A stretch of 28,132 nucleotides of DNA from a virus. Below, one piece after another: positions 17,061-28,132 of this stretch. Under the pieces are notes generated by a model. That model was given only the letters and a program-made list of their open reading frames with translations, was not told the DNA's origin and ran no database searches. The position numbers and the translations under genes are program-made. Numbering within the stretch: position 1 is the stretch's first letter; the number at the start of each line of letters is the position of its first letter. The stretch is from positions 1 through 28,132 of the IMG/VR virus record IMGVR_UViG_3300020438_000213; one strand, written 5' to 3'.

Positions 17061-18884
17061 ATGCCAAGATATCTTAGTGGTAGAGTAAAAAAGGATCCTC
17101 CTAGTAAGGTTGATCCCAATAGGTATAATTATTTAAGTCTTCAACAGGCAGAACCAACTCTTGGTGATCCTATTAATAGTGATCCTGTTCCTTCTGGAAC
17201 ACAGTATCAGTTAGTTGCTGTTCCTGGTAATCCTGGTAAAAGATATTGGGTTCCTACTGGTGGTGGATTAATTCCTGGTGCTATTAGTGTATATGATGAA
17301 GGAACTATAGTAGGTAGTGCTAATAGTATTACTCAACTTAATTTTGAAGGTGCTGCTGTAACTGCGTTTGTTGATGTTCAAAATCCTTCAGGACATCCTG
17401 GCATTGCTGCCACCATGACAATTATTCCAACTACGATTGCGAATGATCCTCCTCCTGAACCAAGGCATGGTGAATTGTGGTGGGAGAGTGATAGTGGAGA
17501 TTTATTCATATATTATATTGATCCAGATGGAACTGGTGTATGGGCAACTGCCAACTCAGGTGGTGGTAATGTCAATCCTGGTCCTCCTGGTGTTGCTGGA
17601 CCTCCTGGTCAAACTGGATTAACAGGGACACCTGGTCTTGCTGGTCCTCCTGGTCCTGCTTCAAATGTTGCTGGACCTCCTGGTCCTGCTGGTCCTCCAG
17701 CAACAACTCCTGGTCCTGCTGGAACTATTGGACCACCTGGATCACCTGGAACTATTGGACCTCCTGGTAATGCTGGACCTCCTGGTTCTGGTCCTCCTGG
17801 TACGATAGGACCTCCTGGTGAGGCTGGTCCTCCTGGCACAGAATCTGGTCCTCCTGGTGATTCTGGACCTCCTGGTCCTCCTGGCACAGAAGCTGGTCCT
17901 CCTGGTGATGCTGGTCCTCCTGGTGATGTTGGACCTCCTGGTACTGATGGTCCTCCTGGTACGCAAGCAGGTCCTCCTGGTACAATTGGTCCTCCTGGAA
18001 CTACTGGACCTCCTGGTTCTGGTCCTCCTGGTACGATAGGACCTCCTGGTGCTGGTGGTCCTCCTGGTACGATAGGACCTCCTGGTTCTAGTCCTCCTGG
18101 TGCTGGTGGTCCTCCTGGCGATCCTGGTCCTCCTGGTACAATTGGTCCTCCTGGATCAAGTCCTGCTGGTCCTCCTGGTGACGCTGGTCCTCCTGGTAAC
18201 GCTGGTCCTCCTGGTACTCAAGCTGGTCCTCCTGGTACAATTGGTCCTCCTGGTTCTAGTCCTGCTGGTCCTCCTGGTACAATTGGTCCTCCTGGTAATG
18301 CTGGTCCTCCTTCAACAGTAGCAGGACCTCCTGGTCCTCCTGGAACTAATCCTGGACCTCCTGGTCCTGGTGGTCCTCCAGGTCCTTCTGGTCCTCCTGG
18401 TGGATCTGGAGCTGCTAGTATTGGAGTAGCGGTTAATGTAGTGGGATCAAGTATTGCTACTTTCTCAAATAATTCTTGGCAACAAATTATGCTAGTTCAG
18501 ATTTCTAAATCTGCAGGTACTGATATTTTAGTTCGTACAGGAGTTAATTTCTTATATGGAGTTGTAAATGATACCGATGATGATGGTGGTATGAATGCTT
18601 ATTTCAGAATTATGAGAAGAATAGGAACATCTGGTGGTTGGGGTCAACTTGGAGTTGGATTAGATTGTACTAATCTTTTTAGTGAGACTGGGAATAGTTC
18701 TCAAACTAAAAAATTTAATGCTCATGGTTCTCTTGAATATCCTGATGTTGGTCTGACTAATAGTTCTTATAGTGCAATTCAATATAGAATTGAGGCAAGA
18801 TATGTAGAAACAGGTAATGATAGTATTGATAGTGATGGATTTCAGATTTTAAAAGGTTCATCTCTTGTAGCTATGGAGTATTAA
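17061..18884 (+). CDS. Collagen-like fibre protein 1
   Basis: 607 residues. An N-terminal domain (1-173; [20 protein letters not shown], then [20 protein letters not shown]) probably anchors it to the virion. Residues 174-450 are Gly-X-Y repeats, mostly Gly-Pro-Pro with Thr, Ala, Asp, Asn or Ile in alternating triplets, broken by short insertions such as GTQAGPPG and GSGPPG. Residues 451-607 are a compact beta-rich head ([20 protein letters not shown], then [20 protein letters not shown]), suggestive of a jelly-roll trimer like those that register collagen stalks; the fold is a guess. Most triplets have Pro in the Y position, the usual target of prolyl 4-hydroxylase, and two such enzymes lie downstream. 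It starts two bases after the preceding stop codon. Confidence 0.85.
17580..18410 (+). repeat. Collagen-like Gly-X-Y repeat tract 1
   Basis: A nine-base-periodic tract made of GGT CCT CCT triplets with varied spacer triplets. Proline is almost always CCT and glycine GGT or GGA, so the DNA is highly repetitive and prone to slippage or misassembly. It encodes residues 174-450 of the 607-aa protein. Confidence 0.93.
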
Positions 18885-18887
18885 AAT

Positions 18888-19226
18888 ATGGCAATTACTC
18901 ATACCGAAACTGTTACTGATTTAATAGTATTAAACGATGGAACAAATGTTGTTTCGCAAGTAGCAATCAAAACTGTCTCTGTTGATGATTCAGATCCTTC
19001 AAATCTTACACAAACAAATTATGATTGTTTTATTATAGATAGTTCTGGTGGAACATCTGCTGCTGGATTTGTAGCATATGATAGTCTATCAGAAACTGTT
19101 GTTAAGGGTTGGATAGCAGATGAACTTTCTGCAAGTGATACAAAGACAAATGCGGAGGCATGGATTAATTCTGTTAAGTCTCCTCCAACACCATCAGAAG
19201 TAAATAAAAAACTACCTTGGTCGTAA
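18888..19226 (+). CDS. 112-aa protein between the two collagen-like genes, unknown function
   Basis: It starts three bases after the first collagen gene and ends one base before the second. It begins [20 protein letters not shown], followed by alternating strands ([29 protein letters not shown]). It ends with a helical segment ([20 protein letters not shown]) and KLPWS. No signal peptide or membrane segment is present and no family was recognised. The tight packing suggests a structural adaptor or a small fibre-assembly protein, which is inference from position. Confidence 0.8.
19199..19206 (+). promoter_or_regulatory. Weak candidate late promoter before collagen-like gene 2
   Basis: AGTAAATA matches six of eight consensus positions and ends 21 bases before the ATG at 19228, the same spacing as the better late promoters. 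It lies inside the end of the 112-aa gene. In such AT-rich DNA a chance match is quite possible. Confidence 0.3.
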
Positions 19227-19227
19227 T

Positions 19228-21462
19228 ATGTCTATAAATTTCCCATCAAATCCTAGCGTTGGAGCCACTTATGTTTTTGGTGTGGCAACTTGGAGATGGG
19301 ATGGTGCTGTTTGGAGAAGAGTTCCTGATCCTGGTGCTCAAGGACCATCTGGATCACCTGGAACTCAAGGATCTCAAGGTCTTACTGGAGGACCTGGTCC
19401 TGCTGGACCTCCTGGTGCTCCTTCTACAGTAGGAGGTCCTCCTGGTGCTGGTGGACCACCTGGACCTGCTGGTCCTCCTGGTCCTGCTTCAACTGTTGCT
19501 GGTCCTCCTGGTCCTGCTGGTGGTCCAATCGGTCCTCCTGGTCCTGCTTCAACTGTTGCTGGTCCTCCTGGTACTCAAGGTATTGCTGGTCCTCCTGGTC
19601 CTGCGTCAACTGCTGCTGGTCCTCCTGGTCCTCCTGGTCTTCAAGGTAATGCTGGACCTCCTGGTCCTGGATCTACAGTAGCTGGTCCTGGTGGTCCTCC
19701 TGGTGCTGCTGGTCCTCCTGGTCCTGCGTCAACTACTCCTGGTCCTGCTGGTCCTCCTGGTGCTGCTGGTCCTCCTGGCCCTGCTTCTACTGTTGCTGGT
19801 CCTGCTGGACCTCCTGGTCTTCAAGGTAACGCTGGTCCTCCTGGCCCTGCTTCTACTGTTGCTGGTCCTGCTGGACCTCCTGGTATTGCTGGTCCTCCAG
19901 GTCCTTCCGTAACTGGATCTCCTGGTCCTGCTTCTACTATTGCTGGTCCTCCAGGTAATGCTGGTCCTCCTGGTGCTGGAACACCTGGATCTCCTGGTCC
20001 TGCTGGTCCTCCTGGTGGTCCAATCGGTCCTCCTGGTCCTGCTGGTCCTCCTGGTCCTGCTTCTACTATTGCTGGTCCTCCTGGTCCTGCTTCAACTGTT
20101 GCTGGTCCTCCTGGTCCTCCTGGTAATGCTGGTCCTCCTGGTGCTGGTGGTCCTCCTGGTGCTTCTGTAAGTGGACCTCCTGGTCCTGCTTCAACTGTTG
20201 CTGGTCCTCCAGGTCCTAATGGTCCTCCTGGTAATGCTGGTCCTCCTGGTCAATCTGGACCTCCAGCAAGTGCTGCTTATCTTGTTCCATCTGGTGGAAT
20301 AATAATGTGGTCTGGGTCTACGTCCAATATTCCTACAGGATGGTACTTATGTGATGGTACTAATGGAACACCAGATTTAACTGATAAATTTATTATTGGT
20401 GCTGGTGGAAATTATTCTGTAGGTGTTAGTGGTGGTAATAAGGATGCTTCAGTTATATCCCATACTCACGATTCTTCTGGAACTGTAAGTGGTGGATCTC
20501 ATACTCACGATGTTTCTGGATCAGCAACTCATAGTCATGATGCCTCTGGTAGTGTAACTGGTAGTTTATCTCATACTCATGCAGTTACTTCAACAGGATC
20601 TCATACTCACGATTCTTCTGGAACTGTAAGTGGTGGTGGATCGCATAGTCATGATATTACTGGATCTGGAAGTCATAATCATGATGTATCAGTTTCTGGT
20701 AGTAGTGGATCTCATAGCCACACATTCTCTGGATCTGGATCTAGTTCTCATAGTCATAGTGTAAGTGCTGGTTCACATAGTCACTCCTTCTCTGGATCTG
20801 GAAGTCATAACCATTCATCATCAGGTGGTTCTCATGGTCATAGTGCTACCTTCAGTGAAAGTGCTCACCAACATACTACTGCTATACCTTCTGGCTCTCA
20901 GGGGGTTGACACAGACAGTCATGGATGGGATACTACTGTTGTTTCTGGTGCTTCTAATTCTCTAACTTGGGGAGCAACTACTGGTGGGAGTGTTTCCGTT
21001 AGTAATGCTACTCCTAGTATTTCTATTAGTAGTGCTAGTGTTTCTGTATCTGGTAATACTGGAAATGCTTCGTCATCAGGTAGTTCAAGTAATGAAAGTG
21101 TATCAGTTTCAGTATCTGGTAGTACTAGTGGTGAGACAACTTCACAATCATCTAGTGGAACTGCTAGTAATGAAACAACAAACATTACAGGATCTACAAG
21201 CTCTGAATCTTTGGGATCATTTAGTGCTTCTGTGACTGTTGATTCAGAATCTATAAGTGTTAGTGGAACTACAGATCCTGCGAATGCTGGAACATTAAAC
21301 AGTTCCGTAAGTGTTGATTCAGAATCGGCAAGTTTTTCTGGATCTACAAGTAATGAGGGTGGTTCATTCAGTGCTTCTATAACTGTTGATAGTGAAGGAT
21401 CAAGTGGTACTAATAAGAATCTTCCACCATATTACGCTTTATGCTTTATAATGAAAACTTAA
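19228..21462 (+). CDS. Collagen-like tail fibre 2 with collar domain and His-X-His needle tip
   Basis: 744 residues. N-terminal Trp-rich tag ([20 protein letters not shown]), then collagen-like Gly-X-Y repeats (about 32-348) broken at regular intervals by PAST(V/I/A)A. A phage tail collar domain follows (about 353-405: [40 protein letters not shown]). Residues 412-549 contain thirteen H-x-H motifs (HTH, HSH, HNH, HGH, HQH). Then comes a Ser/Val strand-rich region (about 580-725) and the end [14 protein letters not shown]. This is the layout of the T4 gp37 tip, where HxH motifs from three chains hold a row of iron ions (seven in T4) and the chain then folds back. The residues between ladder and return arm (about 550-580, including [10 protein letters not shown]) would be the receptor-contact tip. 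The product is probably a host-recognition fibre. Confidence 0.85.
19321..20271 (+). repeat. Collagen-like Gly-X-Y repeat tract 2 with periodic PAST(V/I/A)A interruptions
   Basis: Repeats of GGTCCTCCTGGTCCTGCT, about 12 of them followed by TCTACTGTTGCT-type codons (ST-V/I/A-A). The interruption inserts four residues between Gly-X-Y blocks ([10 protein letters not shown]), a pattern largely absent from tract 1. Confidence 0.9.
20461..20874 (+). repeat. Thirteen H-x-H motifs (metal-binding needle)
   Basis: In-frame CAT/CAC-x-CAT/CAC codons recur every 8-16 residues over residues 412-549 of the 744-aa fibre, mostly in the context (G)SH(T/S/N)H(D/S). In T4 gp37, seven such motifs each coordinate one iron ion per trimer. 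Confidence 0.88.
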
Positions 21463-21474
21463 TTACTTTTTTGT

Positions 21475-22068
21475 ATGAAATTTGAAGATTTTATTTATGT
21501 AAATGATAATGCACTGCCTGAAGACTTATGTGATCAAATTATTATAAAATATGAAGAGGATGATAGAAAATCTCCTGGTTTAGTTGGAATTACTGGGGAT
21601 GACAGAGTCGTTGATACAAGTATTAAAACCTCTGTTGATCTTTTTATTAGTGATTTGGATGATTGGAAAGATGTTGATAGTACTTTAGCAAAAGTAGTAT
21701 CTCAAAATATTCAGAACTATATTAATCATTCTTTTGGTTATCTTGGTCAATTAAATCCAACTCCCAATCCATTTCGTAGTTCTTCATTTGAGGATCGTGG
21801 TTATAATATAAAAGCATACGAACCAGGTGGATATTTTCACTGGCATGATGATTTTGCTTTAGAAGAACATTCTCCTAGAATGCTTGCTATGTTATTCTAT
21901 CTGAATACTATTGATGAAGGTGGATATACTGAATTTGTTAGTGGTGCAAGAGTTTATCCAGTTACTGGAAGATTGGTTATGTTTCCTGCTACATGGAACT
22001 ATATCCATAGAGGAGTCCCTCCTAAGAAAGACAAAAAGTATATAATGTCTGCTTACTTATATCAGTAG
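21475..22068 (+). CDS. 2-oxoglutarate/Fe(II) oxygenase, prolyl 4-hydroxylase type (P4H-1)
   Basis: This 197-residue protein has a double-stranded beta-helix core. It carries the P4H iron and co-substrate set: His124-x-Asp126 in YFHWHDDFA, distal His178 in TWNYIHRGVPP, and Lys188, exactly ten residues after it, to bind the 2OG carboxylate (the human P4H alpha spacing His483-Lys493). Supporting pattern: YNIKAYEPGGYFHWHDD, MLAMLFYLN, GGYTEFVSG, PVTGRLVMFPATW. Such enzymes hydroxylate carbon centres, classically Pro in Y-position collagen triplets. It starts 12 bases after the collagen-like fibre gene with no terminator between, so it is likely expressed late with it. AlkB-type DNA repair is less likely because Lys rather than Arg follows the distal His. 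The substrate is inferred. Confidence 0.87.
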   Translation: MKFEDFIYVNDNALPEDLCDQIIIKYEEDDRKSPGLVGITGDDRVVDTSIKTSVDLFISDLDDWKDVDSTLAKVVSQNIQNYINHSFGYLGQLNPTPNPFRSSSFEDRGYNIKAYEPGGYFHWHDDFALEEHSPRMLAMLFYLNTIDEGGYTEFVSGARVYPVTGRLVMFPATWNYIHRGVPPKKDKKYIMSAYLYQ

Positions 22069-22069
22069 G

Positions 22070-22098
22070 TTGATATTTTTTCTTCTTTATAGTATAAT
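22070..22098 (+). promoter_or_regulatory. Near-consensus sigma70-type promoter
   Basis: TTGATA (22070-22075), a 17-base spacer, then TATAAT (22093-22098), six of six for -10 and five of six for -35. It lies in the only gap between the two oxygenase genes and ends 25 bases before the ATG at 22124. Marine T4-like phages use host sigma70-type promoters for early genes, so this marks a new transcription unit. Confidence 0.82.
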
Positions 22099-22123
22099 AT
22101 GACCTATAGTATTTCAATTAAAA

Positions 22124-22735
22124 ATGAATGACCTGATACAACTAATAGATATTTTAGATGCTGATGATTTAAAGATTATTAATGATTATGCAGATACTTT
22201 AGATTTTGCTGGATCATCTGTCTTTGCATCTGATGGTGGACAGAGAACCGATACTGGTATTAGATCTAGTAGTGGGAGCACTTTTATTGAAGGTACTGAT
22301 GCTACTGTTTTATTACATACCAGAATTAATCAGGGATTAGAAAAATACTATAAAAAAGTTTCTTCAATACATCAAAATTTCACATATTACCCTGTTCCTT
22401 GTGGTTTTGATACTACATGTTGGAGAGAATCAATTCAGTGTTTAGAGTATAATGATGGGCAAGAATATAAATTTCATCATGATTGTGCTACTGATCCTAG
22501 GCTTAGAGAATATGAAAGGAAATTATCTATAATTCTTTATCTTAGTGATGATTTTCTTGGTGGTGGAACAGAGTTTATTCACAAAACTTTTAAACCTAAA
22601 GCTGGAACTGCTGTAATGTTTCCTTCAAACTGGTGTTATCCTCATTCTGGTCAACCAGTTACTGAAGGTACAAAAAGAGTCGCAGTAACTTGGTACTATG
22701 TTGACGGTAATTTTAATAAAAATGAGGAGAATTAA
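22124..22735 (+). CDS. 2-oxoglutarate/Fe(II) oxygenase, prolyl 4-hydroxylase type (P4H-2)
   Basis: This 203-residue protein has the same catalytic set as its neighbour: His118-x-Asp120 in YKFHHDCATDP, distal His174 in NWCYPHSGQPV, and Lys184 ten residues later (EGTKRVAVTWYYV). The core strands read KLSIILYLSDDFLGGGTEF and PKAGTAVMFPSNW. It is closer to canonical P4H than P4H-1 in the ECLEYNDGQEY-like lead-in (actual: IQCLEYNDGQEYKFHHD). Outside the core the two proteins differ, so they are distant paralogues, not a recent duplication. Unlike P4H-1 it has its own sigma70-type promoter, so it could be made early. It may act on the collagen fibres, on P4H-1 targets, or on a host protein. Cys93, Cys99, Cys106, Cys121 and Cys171 are unusually frequent for this phage. 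Confidence 0.87.
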   Translation: MNDLIQLIDILDADDLKIINDYADTLDFAGSSVFASDGGQRTDTGIRSSSGSTFIEGTDATVLLHTRINQGLEKYYKKVSSIHQNFTYYPVPCGFDTTCWRESIQCLEYNDGQEYKFHHDCATDPRLREYERKLSIILYLSDDFLGGGTEFIHKTFKPKAGTAVMFPSNWCYPHSGQPVTEGTKRVAVTWYYVDGNFNKNEEN

Positions 22736-22936
22736 ATGTCTTTACACGATTACGAATGTGATAACGAATTTGTTGAAAAAATTGTTATAGATGTATGTGC
22801 TAGAAAGTTTCTTCTTTATAGTGATACTGGTACTAGAAAAAAGGTAGTATGTGAAACTACAGAGCAATTTATGGATGTGTTGGGAGTAGTAACACAACAT
22901 GCTAATCCAGATTTAATAAAATATTGTGAAATTTAA
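22736..22936 (+). CDS. Small 66-aa protein, unknown function
   Basis: It starts directly after the P4H-2 stop codon, with a strong ribosome binding site (GAGGAGA, 22724-22730), so it belongs to the same transcription unit. The sequence MSLHDYECDNEFVEKIVIDV, then CARKFLLYSDTGTRKKVVCE, looks like a small alpha/beta protein: beta strands, then a helix (TTEQFMDVLGVVTQHANPDL). Four cysteines are present. No family was recognised. Confidence 0.75.
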   Translation: MSLHDYECDNEFVEKIVIDVCARKFLLYSDTGTRKKVVCETTEQFMDVLGVVTQHANPDLIKYCEI

Positions 22937-22973
22937 AATAACTACTCCTTTCTGTTGGTATAAAAACCACACT

Positions 22974-23231
22974 ATGATTGTTAAAATGTATTGTATAAAT
23001 GGAAAACCATTTACATTTGATGAATTACCAGACGATCATTTACAGGATGAGGAACTTATTGAAGAGGCGAATGGACATAATTCATTTGAGGAAGAGGATT
23101 TGTATAAAAATTATAACTATTTAAATCAGGAACAATTACATCCTTCATTCTTTCCTATAGAGTTGGAGAATCCAGATGAATTGCCAGATGATTTAAAATG
23201 CTTTGATATTGATGGAGATGTGACTAGCTAA
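22974..23231 (+). CDS. Small acidic 85-aa protein, unknown function
   Basis: I chose ATG 22974 (MIVKMYCINGKPFTFDELPD). A GTG at 22926 would add 16 residues and overlap the previous gene by 11 bases, and ATG 22986 is also possible; none has a clear ribosome binding site, so the start is uncertain. The protein is very acidic (EEEDLYKNYNYLNQEQLH, DELPDDLKCFDIDGDVTS) with two copies of DELPDD (residues ~15 and ~72). No family was recognised. Its stop codon overlaps the late-promoter-like motif of the next gene. Confidence 0.68.
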   Translation: MIVKMYCINGKPFTFDELPDDHLQDEELIEEANGHNSFEEEDLYKNYNYLNQEQLHPSFFPIELENPDELPDDLKCFDIDGDVTS

Positions 23232-23234
23232 ATA
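23227..23234 (+). promoter_or_regulatory. Probable late promoter for the giant structural gene
   Basis: GCTAAATA matches six of eight late consensus positions and shares CTAAATAG with the gp4/gp54 promoters. It lies within GACTA-GCTAAA-TAGTC, an inverted repeat (23222-23237), and ends 34 bases before the ATG at 23269. Confidence 0.5.
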
Positions 23235-23244
23235 GTCCAAAGAA

Positions 23245-23260
23245 ACTTTTGGCCAAAAGT
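23245..23260 (+). repeat. Perfect 16-bp palindrome in the 5' leader
   Basis: ACTTTTGGCCAAAAGT is its own reverse complement. It lies between the promoter motif and the GGAG ribosome binding site (23261-23264) of the giant gene. In RNA it could form a six-pair hairpin with a GGCC loop directly upstream of the ribosome binding site. Confidence 0.8.
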
Positions 23261-23268
23261 GGAGTAAG

Positions 23269-26200
23269 ATGCCTTTAAATAAATTAGAGAATTTCATAAA
23301 AAATACTGAAGGACGTATTCTTTATGTAAACCCAAATGACCTTGACGCTACTGATGGTATCGAGAATCAAGGAAATTCATTAACAAAACCTTTTAAGACT
23401 TTACAGAGGGCGTTAATAGAGTCTGCTAGATTTTCATATTTGGAAGGTAACGATAACGATATAACGGAAAAAACAACTATATTACTATTTCCTGGTGAGC
23501 ATTTAATTGACAATAGACCAGGTTTAGGTATTAAAAGTATTTCTGGGGATGCTAAAGCAGTATCACCTTCTGGTGTTGTTCTTGATGATGGAGCAGCAGA
23601 TGTATTTTCATTAAATCTTAATTCTAATTTTGATTTAACACAGGAAGATAATGTACTTCATAAGTTTAATAGTGTTCATGGTGGTGTTGTTGTACCCCGT
23701 GGTACATCTGTTGTTGGTTTAGATCTTAGAAAAACTAAGATAAGACCCAAGTATGTTCCAAACCCAACAGATGACAACGTACCAACCACTGCTATTTTTA
23801 GGGTTACTGGTTCTTGTTATTTCTGGCAGTTCACTATCTTTGATGGTGATGAGGCAAATCTAGTATATACAGATAATATTGACTTTGGTACTGATAATAG
23901 ATCAAAACCAACATTCTCTCACCATAAACTAACAGTATTTGAATATGCTGATGGTGTTAATACTATTGAGAATTATCAATTAACAGACCTTCAAATATAT
24001 TATAGTAAGTTATCAAATGCATTTAATAGGGCATCTACTAGAGAGATAACGCAGAAATATCCTAAGAATCCTGAAGGATTTGCTCCACAGAGACCTGAAT
24101 TTGAGATTGTTGGTGCTTTTGCTACTGATGATAAAGCAATATCTACAATTATTTCTGGTGATGGTGCTACTGCTGGTACTGTAATTACAGTTACTACGTC
24201 TTTACCTCACGATTTAAGTTCTGGAACTCCTGTAAAAATTACTGGAGTTAATTTTAGAGACTTTAATGTCTCTACAAAGGTACAGACAGTCATAGATGAT
24301 AATAGATTCACATATTTATTACCATATGTAAGACCTAATCTACCTGCAGGACCTTCTGCTGGATTAAGTGCTGCTGGAGCGTTTATTTCTGTTGAAACTG
24401 ATACTGTTACTGGTGCTTCTCCTTATATCTTTAACTGTTCAATGAGATCAGTTTGGGGTATGTGTGGTATGCATGCTGATGGTGCTAAGGCAACTGGATT
24501 TAAGTCAATGGTTGTGGCACAGTTTACTGGTGTTTCACTACAGAAAGATGATCGTGCATTTACTGAGTATGATCCAGTAAATAGAACTTACAGTGGTATA
24601 AATTATACAAGACAAAATGGTGAAAAGTTATCTTCTGAATCATCTTCTAAAAATAATAATCAAGTATTCCATTTAAAACCAACTGCAGTTTATAGAACTG
24701 GTTGGAAAAATATTCACGTTAGAGTTTCTAACGATTCTGTTATTCAGGTTGTATCTGTTTTTGCTATTGGATACCATATTCATTTCCGTATGGAGTCTGG
24801 TGGTGATGCTTCAGTTACAAACTCAAACTCAAACTTTGGTCAGTTTGCTCTCTCTGCTGATGGATTCAAGAACAAAGCGTTTGATAAAGATAATAAAGGT
24901 TTTGTAACTTCAATTATTACTCCAAGAGCGATTAATACGACTGAATTTGATGTTGAGTGGTTACAGGTAGATAAATCTAAAACTAAAAAGATATATGCTG
25001 CTTGTGCTTCGGGTGAAACCTCAGTTGGTCAAATAAACATTGGTGCTGATCTTGATAGTCCCAAGAGACGTATATACCTTTTAGGTCAAACTAATAAGTC
25101 ACTTATACCTTCTGATATTGCTCAAGGTTTTAGAGTTGGTGCTAAAGTTAATGAGAAAATTTGTATTAACAAGGATGCTAATGGAGATCCTTTATATACT
25201 GCTGATGTTTTCATGTCAAACGGCACTCTAACTGCCGCTACTGTGACATCTGAGAAACTATATGAAGCATTACATTCTAATCAAGTTGATTATGTAAACC
25301 CATCAATATATCAAATTGAGGGATCTCATGAATTACAAAATGGTGAGTCTGTCAGAATAATATCTGAAAGTGGAAGATTGCCTGAAGGATTAGATGCTCA
25401 TGCCATATATTTTGCCATTACTAGTGCTCAAGATAGTGATCTTCAATCAAATGAAATAAGATTGGCATCATCAAGAGCTAATGCTAATTTAGCTGATCCT
25501 GAATATATTAAAACTATATCTGATTCTGCGTCTGGATCTCTAAAAATTGTTAGTAGAGTATCTGATAAGAGACCAGGAGAATTGGGACATCCAATTCAAT
25601 ATGATGAAACTACATATAATGCTGATTGGGATGATACTGATAGTGATACAACTAAGACTTATCAATCAGGTGGTTGGTTTGTTCATACTCATATAGACAA
25701 CACAATTAATACTGCTCTAGATCCAACAGGTACTGGTAGTAGTTCTGCCGAACTTACTGGAGATGAAATTCCATATATTGTTAGAAAATCTGATGATAGA
25801 AGTTTAGATGAAAAACTCTATAAGGTTAGATATGTAGTTCCTAAAGAACTAGTAGATGCTAAAGATCCAACAGATGGTTTCATTTTACAGGATTCAAGTC
25901 AAACAACAGTCGATAGGATTGAAGACTTTACTAGATCTGAAATTGGAAATGGTAATGATTCTACAATAAGTCCAAATGATCCTGGATACACTTTCAATAG
26001 AAATCTAAGATTTATTTCATTCCTTGAGTATGATACTAACTCTAGAATTGCTACAGTTAGATCTGATAAATCTCATGATATGAAAGTGGGTGAGTTAGTT
26101 ACTATTAGAAATATAAAGAGTAGTACTAATAGTACAGGTATATTTAATACTGAATATAATGGATCCTTTGTTGTTGAAAGTGTAATTGATGAAAAAACCT

Positions 26201-28132
26201 TTACATATAAAGTAGTAAAATTAGTTGATGGGGAGGCTGTAGGTGATATTATTACCGTTGGTACATATACTCACACAAGCAATACAAGAACTAGAGATTT
26301 ACCTAGATTTGAAAGAACCGATAATAAAGAAAATCTTTATATCTATCGTACAGAAACATTAACACCATACAAATATAATATTCAAGATGGTATCTATCAT
26401 CTTTATGTATTGAATGGTAATAATGTTATTGAGAAGGAATTTACCGATTTAAAATTTAATCAAAGTGTTGTTGATCTTTATCCACAGTTGGATAGAGATA
26501 ATCCAAATCAAAATGCTCCAGCATCTAAGTCATACGCTCAGTTGTCTCCAATTGGTCAAGTTGTAACTAATGATCTTAAGAAGAGTGTTACACGAGAAAC
26601 AGCAAATATTTTCTTAGATACTTTTGGTGTCAGTAATACTATTACAAATATATCAAGTAGTGCTACTAATCCAATACTAACATTAAGTACAGAACATAAG
26701 TTAAATGGATTGCGATTTATTGAAAATGGTGATATAACCAGTGTTGTCAATACTTCTGCTCCTCATCATGAAGGAACCTATCATAATATAAAATTATTTG
26801 ATTCATCTGTTTCTCCATCTGCTGCTCCTTGGAAGGGAGCAACTGCTGAAGTTGTTGTTGGTGGTGCTAATAATTTAGTCACTACTGCAAAAATAAGTGA
26901 ATCTGGTTCTGGTTATTCTGCTGGTGATCAATTGTATTTTGATTCTTCACCTATTGTTGGTGCTGGATTATCTGGTGTGCCAAGTAACAGTAAGATTACA
27001 TTGAAAGCTGATCATATCTCAATAGCAGATGATATCGGTTATGTTCAAGTTACAGGTATAACAACTGGTACTGATGCTTATTATAGAATTAAGAATACTC
27101 CAAGTGAGAAACAGGTAACTGTTTATACTCATGCGGATAATGATAAAATCCTAGAAGGGCAGCAAATAATTGATTTGGGGCCTTATTCTGAGGTTACTGC
27201 TACTGGTGGAGTTGTTTCTGTCACAGAAGATTTTGTGACAACCACAACATTTACTACAAAAGCACCTCATGGATTTGCTAAGGGTAATACTATAAGAATC
27301 CTTGATTCATCTGATAAGAAACTAGGAGACTTCTTAGTATCTGAATCTATAAAGGATACTAATAATGCCAATACAATATTCACTGTGGTTACTACTGGTG
27401 TTACTGTAACTTCTGCTAAGTATATTCTTAAACATGGATTGTCTGCTCATGATGCAATATCTGGAAAAGCAGGTGAGAATTTAGATGTAAGGGGTGTAGG
27501 ATTATATGCTCAAGATACCCTGCAATTAGATGCTGGTATTACGACTGAGAATGAGTTTATAGTTAATCTTGGTGATGGTACTGAAATTGCTACTGGAACT
27601 GCTGGTGAACAATTAACTAAGAAGGCATCTGTTGAATCTAGATTCCCATTAGGATCTTACTTCCAGATGGGCGGTGAGATATTAAGGGTAAGAAAAGATG
27701 CCTTACAGGGAACTTCATTTAATAAGATCTCTGTAATTCGTGGAGCATTAGGATCTAATGTACAAAATCATGATCCTAAGTCTGTAATTAGAAAGATTAA
27801 ACCATTAGCTCTTGAAGTAAGAAGACCATCTATCTTGAGGGCATCTGGTCATACATTTGAATATCTTGGTTATGGTCCAGGTAACTATTCAACAGGTCTT
27901 CCACAGATCTCTAAGAGAACTTTAACTGAAAGAGAAGAGTTCTTATCACAGTCACAAGAAACATCTTGTGGTACTGTTGTTTACACTGGTATGAATGATA
28001 AGGGTGATTTCTATATTGGAAACACCAAGATTTCTGCTGACAGTGGTGAGCAAATTACATTTGATATTCCAATTCCAACTGTAACGGGTGAAGATCCAAG
28101 TAAGTTGAGTGTTGTATTTGATGAAGTAATCA
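23269..28132 (+). CDS. Giant virion structural protein, 5' part (runs off right edge)
   Basis: The frame is open from ATG 23269 (GGAG five bases upstream) to the last base: at least 1621 codons. The start reads MPLNKLENFIKNTEGRILYV. It continues with a pectin-lyase-like entry (NPNDLDATDG, SLTKPFKTLQRALIESARFS, TTILLFPGEHLIDNRP), VPRGTSVVGLDLRKTKIRPK, SPYIFNCSMRSVWGMCGMHA (384 on) and NSNSNFGQFALSADGF (518 on). The last two motifs and HTFEYLGYG (1528) plus NDKGDFYIG (about 1576) recur in the 1157-aa protein, so the two share modules. The middle (about 660-1450) is beta-rich repeats without clear homology. Very long proteins of this type are virion components of marine T4-like phages, probably baseplate or fibre associated. 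Function is inferred; no enzymatic motif was seen. Confidence 0.8.
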   Translation, partial: MPLNKLENFIKNTEGRILYVNPNDLDATDGIENQGNSLTKPFKTLQRALIESARFSYLEGNDNDITEKTTILLFPGEHLIDNRPGLGIKSISGDAKAVSPSGVVLDDGAADVFSLNLNSNFDLTQEDNVLHKFNSVHGGVVVPRGTSVVGLDLRKTKIRPKYVPNPTDDNVPTTAIFRVTGSCYFWQFTIFDGDEANLVYTDNIDFGTDNRSKPTFSHHKLTVFEYADGVNTIENYQLTDLQIYYSKLSNAFNRASTREITQKYPKNPEGFAPQRPEFEIVGAFATDDKAISTIISGDGATAGTVITVTTSLPHDLSSGTPVKITGVNFRDFNVSTKVQTVIDDNRFTYLLPYVRPNLPAGPSAGLSAAGAFISVETDTVTGASPYIFNCSMRSVWGMCGMHADGAKATGFKSMVVAQFTGVSLQKDDRAFTEYDPVNRTYSGINYTRQNGEKLSSESSSKNNNQVFHLKPTAVYRTGWKNIHVRVSNDSVIQVVSVFAIGYHIHFRMESGGDASVTNSNSNFGQFALSADGFKNKAFDKDNKGFVTSIITPRAINTTEFDVEWLQVDKSKTKKIYAACASGETSVGQINIGADLDSPKRRIYLLGQTNKSLIPSDIAQGFRVGAKVNEKICINKDANGDPLYTADVFMSNGTLTAATVTSEKLYEALHSNQVDYVNPSIYQIEGSHELQNGESVRIISESGRLPEGLDAHAIYFAITSAQDSDLQSNEIRLASSRANANLADPEYIKTISDSASGSLKIVSRVSDKRPGELGHPIQYDETTYNADWDDTDSDTTKTYQSGGWFVHTHIDNTINTALDPTGTGSSSAELTGDEIPYIVRKSDDRSLDEKLYKVRYVVPKELVDAKDPTDGFILQDSSQTTVDRIEDFTRSEIGNGNDSTISPNDPGYTFNRNLRFISFLEYDTNSRIATVRSDKSHDMKVGELVTIRNIKSSTNSTGIFNTEYNGSFVVESVIDEKTFTYKVVKLVDGEAVGDIITVGTYTHTSNTRTRDLPRFERTDNKENLYIYRTETLTPYKYNIQDGIYHLYVLNGNNVIEKEFTDLKFNQSVVDLYPQLDRDNPNQNAPASKSYAQLSPIGQVVTNDLKKSVTRETANIFLDTFGVSNTITNISSSATNPILTLSTEHKLNGLRFIENGDITSVVNTSAPHHEGTYHNIKLFDSSVSPSAAPWKGATAEVVVGGANNLVTTAKISESGSGYSAGDQLYFDSSPIVGAGLSGVPSNSKITLKADHISIADDIGYVQVTGITTGTDAYYRIKNTPSEKQVTVYTHADNDKILEGQQIIDLGPYSEVTATGGVVSVTEDFVTTTTFTTKAPHGFAKGNTIRILDSSDKKLGDFLVSESIKDTNNANTIFTVVTTGVTVTSAKYILKHGLSAHDAISGKAGENLDVRGVGLYAQDTLQLDAGITTENEFIVNLGDGTEIATGTAGEQLTKKASVESRFPLGSYFQMGGEILRVRKDALQGTSFNKISVIRGALGSNVQNHDPKSVIRKIKPLALEVRRPSILRASGHTFEYLGYGPGNYSTGLPQISKRTLTEREEFLSQSQETSCGTVVYTGMNDKGDFYIGNTKISADSGEQITFDIPIPTVTGEDPSKLSVVFDEVI

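Follow-up and report, generated by a model that had tools for sequence, protein, structure and literature searches.

We analysed a cluster of collagen and oxygenase genes in a 28,132-base linear virus record of IMG/VR (IMGVR_UViG_3300020438_000213, the full length of which is termed the window), which appears to cover structural genes of a marine T4-like phage. The cluster encodes two collagen-like tail-fibre proteins, C1 and C2, followed by two 2-oxoglutarate/Fe(II) (2OG/Fe(II)) oxygenases, E1 and E2, candidate hydroxylases of these fibres (Table 1). A preliminary description, made from the sequence alone, had placed all four genes correctly, and its 12-base spacing between C2 and E1 without a terminator was likewise confirmed, with 0 terminator-like sites in 18800-23400. 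The nearest isolates at this locus are the Prochlorococcus phages P-SSM2 and P-SSM5, alongside the single-cell virus AG-345-F15 (Kyanoviridae).

Collagen fibres and gene layout

Both C1 and C2 contained a PF01391 Collagen domain and were classed as tail fibre by PHROGs, thus combining a long Gly-X-Y tract with tail-fibre domains, as is characteristic of collagen-like phage tail fibres. Counting Gly-X-Y triplets in runs of at least three, we identified 88 in C1 and 77 in C2, against no more than 33 in shuffled versions of either protein (1000 trials each), in agreement with the long tracts first described. The accompanying statement that proline occupies nearly every Y position was too strong, as proline was found at 42 of the 88 Y positions in C1 and 37 of the 77 in C2 (48% each). 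GPP typically alternates with a proline-free triplet, and the Y-prolines lie almost entirely within GPP units (41 copies in C1, 34 in C2); the pattern GPPGxxGPPGxxGPP matched both tracts, with 0 matches in the shuffles. A tblastn search of the phage collection with the GPP tract as query returned 0 matches, probably owing to low-complexity filtering. Lysine was almost absent from the Y positions. Both genes contain degenerate arrays of 9, 18 and 57 bases; the long arrays have diverged (57-71% matches), and the triplets that separate GPP units vary. The C-terminal half of C2 additionally contains His-rich repeats (window 20457-20742), possibly metal-binding tail-collar repeats.

E1 and E2 are separated by 55 bases, which hold a match to a sigma70-like promoter. 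A TATAAT box 25-35 bases 5' of the start is frequent among E2 orthologues, and matches to the sigma70 consensus of at least 10/12 were found in 28% of their upstream regions, versus 4% of shuffles. These boxes fit transcription by a host-type polymerase, the timing of expression being presumptive.

Table 1. Positions in the window of the collagen and oxygenase genes and of neighbouring features
Feature	Position	Strand	Basis
C1, collagen-like tail-fibre protein, 607 aa	17061..18884	+	PF01391, tail-fibre PHROG, triplet count
C1 Gly-X-Y (GPP-rich) tract	17580..18416	+	residues 174-452
112-aa protein with DUF7936, between C1 and C2	18888..19226	+	PF25590, E 1.5e-7
C2, collagen-like tail-collar type fibre protein, 744 aa	19228..21462	+	PF01391, tail-fibre PHROG, triplet count
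C2 Gly-X-Y (GPP-rich) tract	19333..20265	+	residues 36-346
E1, prolyl-hydroxylase-like 2OG/Fe(II) oxygenase, 197 aa	21475..22068	+	PF13640; H124, D126, H178, K188
Sigma70-like promoter match 5' of E2, TTGATA-17-TATAAT, 11/12	22070..22098	+	consensus scan
E2, prolyl-hydroxylase-like 2OG/Fe(II) oxygenase, 203 aa	22124..22735	+	PF13640; H118, D120, H174, K184
Small ORF, 66 aa, directly 3' of E2	22736..22936	+	position of T4-GC29 in P-SSM2
Giant tail-fibre gene, open at window end	23269..28131	+	position of P-SSM2 T4-GC30; syntenic anchor 3' of E2

Residues, fold and class of the oxygenases

PHROGs places both enzymes in the 2OG oxygenase family phrog_61, and the catalytic residues first proposed for each proved correct. 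The HxD...H triad, and a lysine ten residues after the distal histidine, were invariant in 22 E1-family and 35 E2-family sequences. In AlphaFold models of the two proteins (pLDDT 83 for E1 and 85 for E2), the best structural matches were prolyl hydroxylases, with Z scores of 16-19 over approximately 160-176 residues of a double-stranded beta-helix fold. These included Cr-P4H, an algal prolyl 4-hydroxylase (P4H), together with the peptide (Ser-Pro)5 (3gze; Z 17.1 for the E2 model and 18.8 for the E1 model), Pseudomonas putida P4H with EF-Tu (4iw3; 17.2 and 18.5), vCPH of the chlorovirus PBCV-1 (5c5t; 15.8 and 18.3) and HIF prolyl hydroxylases. Searches with Foldseek identified PBCV-1 vCPH as the top match of E1 (E 1.5e-10) and within the top five for E2. 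PiuC structures scored somewhat lower (Z 14.9 and 15.7), and lysyl hydroxylases matched less well than prolyl hydroxylases.

Two other identities were considered and rejected. The catalytic fold fills the 197 and 203 amino acids of E1 and E2, leaving no room for the peptide-substrate-binding domain of the alpha subunit of animal collagen prolyl 4-hydroxylase (C-P4H, alpha2beta2). An arginine after the distal histidine (HRVxPVxxGxR) is, we assume, the mark of the PiuC/PKHD type, and both enzymes have lysine there. On both grounds, E1 and E2 are, to judge from sequence and predicted structure, monomeric P4H-type 2OG/Fe(II) oxygenases of the kind known from algae, bacteria and viruses.

Linkage of oxygenases to proline-rich collagen

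We identified 66 IMG/VR loci encoding E2 relatives, and evaluated the 48 distinct ones that had 3 kb or more of upstream sequence. At least 20 Gly-X-Y triplets were found within 10 kb in 43 of the 48, and at least four GPP units near E2 in 36. As background we used viral collagens from a scan for bare Gly-X-Y spacing, blind to both proline and enzyme. The median fraction of Y positions occupied by proline (Y-Pro) was 0.29 at E2 loci and 0.015 in the background (Mann-Whitney p 9e-15), and where the corresponding fraction for X (X-Pro) was at least 0.3 the medians were 0.38 and 0.04 (p 1e-9), these linkage p-values ignoring phage relatedness. The ratio of Y to X proline was 0.70 for collagens near E2, versus 0.08 in the background.

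The same association was seen in loci found only through the N-terminal domain of C1: those with a proline-Y tract and downstream sequence contained E2, and two others, one with lysine in Y (L477) and one collagen-free (L478), lacked E2 anywhere in their records. P-SSM2 and AG-345-F15 retain the arrangement of proline-Y collagen and E2, and the isolate S-CRM01, with 197 collagen triplets and a Y-Pro of 0.03, has no E2-grade match. When bacterial and archaeal genomes were scanned for E2, only three contigs were recovered, probably phage DNA (from a SAR11 single-cell genome and a metagenome-assembled genome), one with a proline-Y collagen just upstream, and no cellular ancestor was found.

For E1 the case is weaker. 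Its position, at most 13 bases from the second collagen, is kept in six related contigs, and the Y-Pro of long collagens peaks in loci with both E1 and E2 (0.47-0.54), all within one lineage. The adjacency of E1 and collagen holds only in the close relatives of the window, and its link is less certain than that of E2. Among related phages, the proposed correlation between collagen and oxygenase genes was thus borne out for E2, and for E1 solely in the lineage of the window. In AG-345-F15, an E1 of the kind found away from collagen and the E2 next to a proline-Y collagen lie on separate contigs, and E1 may therefore still act in trans.

We additionally approached the linkage from the collagen side, using 91 IMG/VR stretches with an AT-codon GPPGxxGPPGxxGPP tract, of which 74 records were examined with PF13640 searched over each whole record. 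A PF13640 oxygenase was found within 1.5 kb of the GPP collagen in 26 of the 74. Such an oxygenase accompanied 20 of 40 records with long proline-Y tracts, versus 1 of 50 low-proline controls (Fisher p 4e-8), a value that is indicative only, because the E1 and E2 families of T4-like phages account for 17 of the 26 adjacent oxygenases and the counts are not independent. In some of the 20 long-tract negatives (e.g. G154, G151 and G136), the contig stops immediately beyond the collagen. A first sample, drawn from any codons, showed a similar trend (8/47 versus 1/50).

The remaining nine adjacent oxygenases (G028, G043, G046, G118, G129, G132, G141, G142 and G146) fall outside the E1 and E2 families, and on removal of the E2 family the difference from controls was 9/57 versus 1/50 (p 0.018). 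In the oxygenase tree, the label of proximity to proline-Y collagen appeared in at least three separate places, and in most of the collagen-adjacent enzymes outside the two families arginine replaces the lysine. Because several of the adjacent oxygenases come from other subfamilies, the pairing is inherited only in part, and not as one arrangement; its origin in a single lineage is unlikely.

Two further groupings were observed. A separate clade of HRVxPVxxGxR oxygenases adjoins collagens, mostly with proline in Y (L221, L223, L188, L174, L389, L401 and L305), one such pair lying on a 200-kb contig. Arrays of five consecutive 2OG oxygenase genes were identified approximately 1.1 kb 3' of a short GPP-rich protein (L456:13262-18232, L457, L467 and L468).

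Proposed collagen hydroxylation and alternative explanations

Taking together the gene order, catalytic residues, predicted fold and statistical linkage to proline-Y collagen that we observed, we consider it reasonably probable that the phage hydroxylates its own fibre collagen at Y-prolines. In the proposed mechanism, for which we infer the substrate, the hydroxylated carbon, the timing and the effect on the fibre, C1 and C2 would be tail-fibre proteins containing collagen triple helices, and E2, as a monomeric prolyl 4-hydroxylase probably aided by E1, would hydroxylate the Y-prolines of their Gly-Pro-Pro units. The reaction would take place within the infected cell, ahead of chain trimerisation, and would use O2, 2-oxoglutarate and Fe(II). 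Hydroxylation of Y-proline in other collagens raises the stability of the triple helix, and hydroxyproline may similarly stabilise the fibre shaft, and in some relatives possibly provide an attachment point for sugars or other moieties.

Several observations weigh against this interpretation, besides the relatedness ignored in the p-values. Distant E1 relatives lie between the terminase and tail sheath genes (L006 and L097), and others, with a second distant 2OG oxygenase, directly 5' of the giant tail fibre in collagen-free loci (L081:9923-11154, L087 and L088). Orthologues of E2 were found beside collagens with lysine in Y (L055, L061, L062 and L070), amid nearly proline-free GAQGTSGSQG-type collagens (L050:6881-16521), and in S-CAM7 and ACG-2014f, where Y-Pro is only 0.12 and 0.09. 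Long proline-Y collagens were also identified with no P4H-type oxygenase nearby (G009, G120 and G127), and the predicted structures cannot separate collagen from EF-Tu as the substrate of E1 and E2. The occurrence of E2 beside collagens of other types, and of proline-Y collagens free of the enzyme, therefore indicates either a wider substrate range or a looser link than one enzyme for one residue.

The lysine-Y collagens next to E2 orthologues form a second class, typified by the tract KGQKGEKGQKGEKG (L061:6123-7868, L064:3609-5786, L055:2229-4988 and L070:3683-5065), and are candidates for hydroxylysine or for triple helices stabilised by salt bridges. Lysine occupies at least 20% of Y positions at eight evaluable E2 loci, and two lysine-Y loci (L034 and L062) contain two tandem copies of E2. 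Genes for GT4 glycosyltransferases, a carbamoyltransferase, a sulfotransferase and a JmjC_2 protein were identified near E2 orthologues (L005:13827-14918, L004:9943-11912, L068:8560-9990, L040:1876-2817 and L043:7771-8436), and their products could decorate or add hydroxyls; no glycosyltransferase, sulfotransferase or carbamoyltransferase gene was found within the window. These loci, together with mimivirus, whose genome carries prolyl and lysyl hydroxylases of collagen as well as glucosyltransferases (PMC9546862), favour an alternative in which the enzymes act on Y residues generally, on proline in the window and on lysine in GQKGEKG-type relatives, the hydroxyls then being glycosylated, sulfated or carbamoylated. 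This we regard as doubtful, though deserving of some weight, given the near absence of Y-lysine in the window collagens and the weaker matches to lysyl hydroxylases. Stabilisation of triple helices by K-G-E charge pairs, moreover, requires no hydroxylation.

The EF-Tu complex among the top structural matches of both enzymes, the E1 relatives away from collagen and the retention of E2 in L050 without proline-Y collagen would suit enzymes that hydroxylate host proteins (EF-Tu or a ribosomal protein), with proximity to the fibres reflecting a hot spot for auxiliary genes; the host-recognition region of marine T4-like phages does gather non-tail-fibre genes (PMC7029224). We judge this unlikely, as a hot spot would predict neither the enrichment of proline specifically in Y near the enzyme nor the repetition of the pairing by other oxygenase subfamilies in other phages. 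It is quite improbable that the GPP repeats were spread by slippage of a 9/18-base DNA unit, with no selection acting for hydroxylation, which would render Y-Pro uninformative on the enzymes: the degenerate arrays in C1 and C2 are compatible with such an origin, but their divergence and the variable triplets between GPP units are not what it implies, slippage would give no reason to expect the enzyme next to collagen in unrelated phages, and in other phage collagens Y-Pro stays near zero despite strong X-Pro. Least credible is a role in metabolism or DNA repair, through 2-oxoglutarate/nitrogen signalling or repair, as proposed for cyanophage 2OG oxygenases (PMC3037559, PMC2984593 and PMC9602691), since those arguments address the whole family or copies beside uvsX/uvsY, whereas E2 lies in a tail-fibre locus and tracks Y-Pro, and the folds of both enzymes are closest to protein prolyl hydroxylases.

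Returning to hydroxylation of fibre collagen, phages with the pairing probably make, on the evidence of sequence and models, an animal-style hydroxylated collagen thought absent from bacteria and their viruses. More tentatively, and with somewhat less than even confidence, we propose that this modification is widespread and repeatedly evolved in aquatic phages, through the recruitment of separate 2OG oxygenase subfamilies (the lysine-type E2 and arginine-type PiuC-like enzymes) to make animal-type Gly-Pro-Hyp, and that the lysine-Y collagens, with the glycosyl-, sulfo- and carbamoyltransferases, belong to a broader system of fibre decoration. Cyanophages each encode from one to two dozen 2OG oxygenases, with substrates unassigned (PMC3037559 and PMC9602691), of which one subset would gain a concrete candidate substrate. 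Enzymes of the E1 and E2 type are also possible small soluble tools for the production of hydroxylated collagen in bacteria.

Published Y-Pro values are 7-9% in collagens of viruses and prophages, versus 33-42% in human ones (PMC3368898). The phage collagens rich in Y-proline and accompanied by putative hydroxylases contradict the rule drawn there, that viral Y-Pro is low since bacteria and viruses lack the hydroxylase. The prophage collagens of Escherichia coli O157:H7 (EPclPs) resemble C1 and C2 as phage tail fibres rich in X-proline, and differ in a Y-Pro of only 7.4% and in the lack of a hydroxylase, a point stressed by their authors (PMC3368898). We found no report of a pairing of phage collagen with a prolyl hydroxylase in the open-access literature, beyond a passing remark in a survey that calls viral P4H use cryptic (PMC9301287) and a description of cyanophage 2OG oxygenases as similar in structure to human EGLN3 (PMC12774648).

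Among individual systems, PSSM2_031 of P-SSM2 is a syntenic orthologue of E2 (56% identity), located 3' of collagen-like fibres and 5' of the giant fibre T4-GC30, in a locus that differs from the window in having no adjacent E1 and a Y-Pro of 0.23; its annotation names, 'piuC' and 'ferrochelatase', do not reflect a prolyl hydroxylase. The fibre proteins of P-SSM2 include PSSM2_023, 024, 027 and 028, and P-SSM5 likewise has an E2 orthologue and proline-Y fibres. Bacillus anthracis P4H (3itq and 5hv0) is the closest solved structure to E2 by sequence (E 9e-7), with the same His...Lys spacing, and is reported to hydroxylate synthetic collagen-type peptides with a preference for Y (PMC8968730). 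It differs in being encoded by a bacterial chromosomal gene, and according to the title of 5v7y it also binds and modifies EF-Tu. PBCV-1 vCPH (5c5t/5c5u) is, as predicted for E1 and E2, a small virus-encoded prolyl hydroxylase, but from a virus of a eukaryotic alga and with 16-24% identity to the phage enzymes. Mimivirus similarly unites collagens and hydroxylases in one virus (PMC9546862), as predicted from genes for the phage; it is, however, a giant virus of amoebae whose L230 fuses a lysyl hydroxylase with a glucosyltransferase, in contrast to the separate 200-aa enzymes beside tail-fibre genes in the phage. By analogy, the proposed collagen hydroxylation would be a phage version of the PBCV-1 and mimivirus system.

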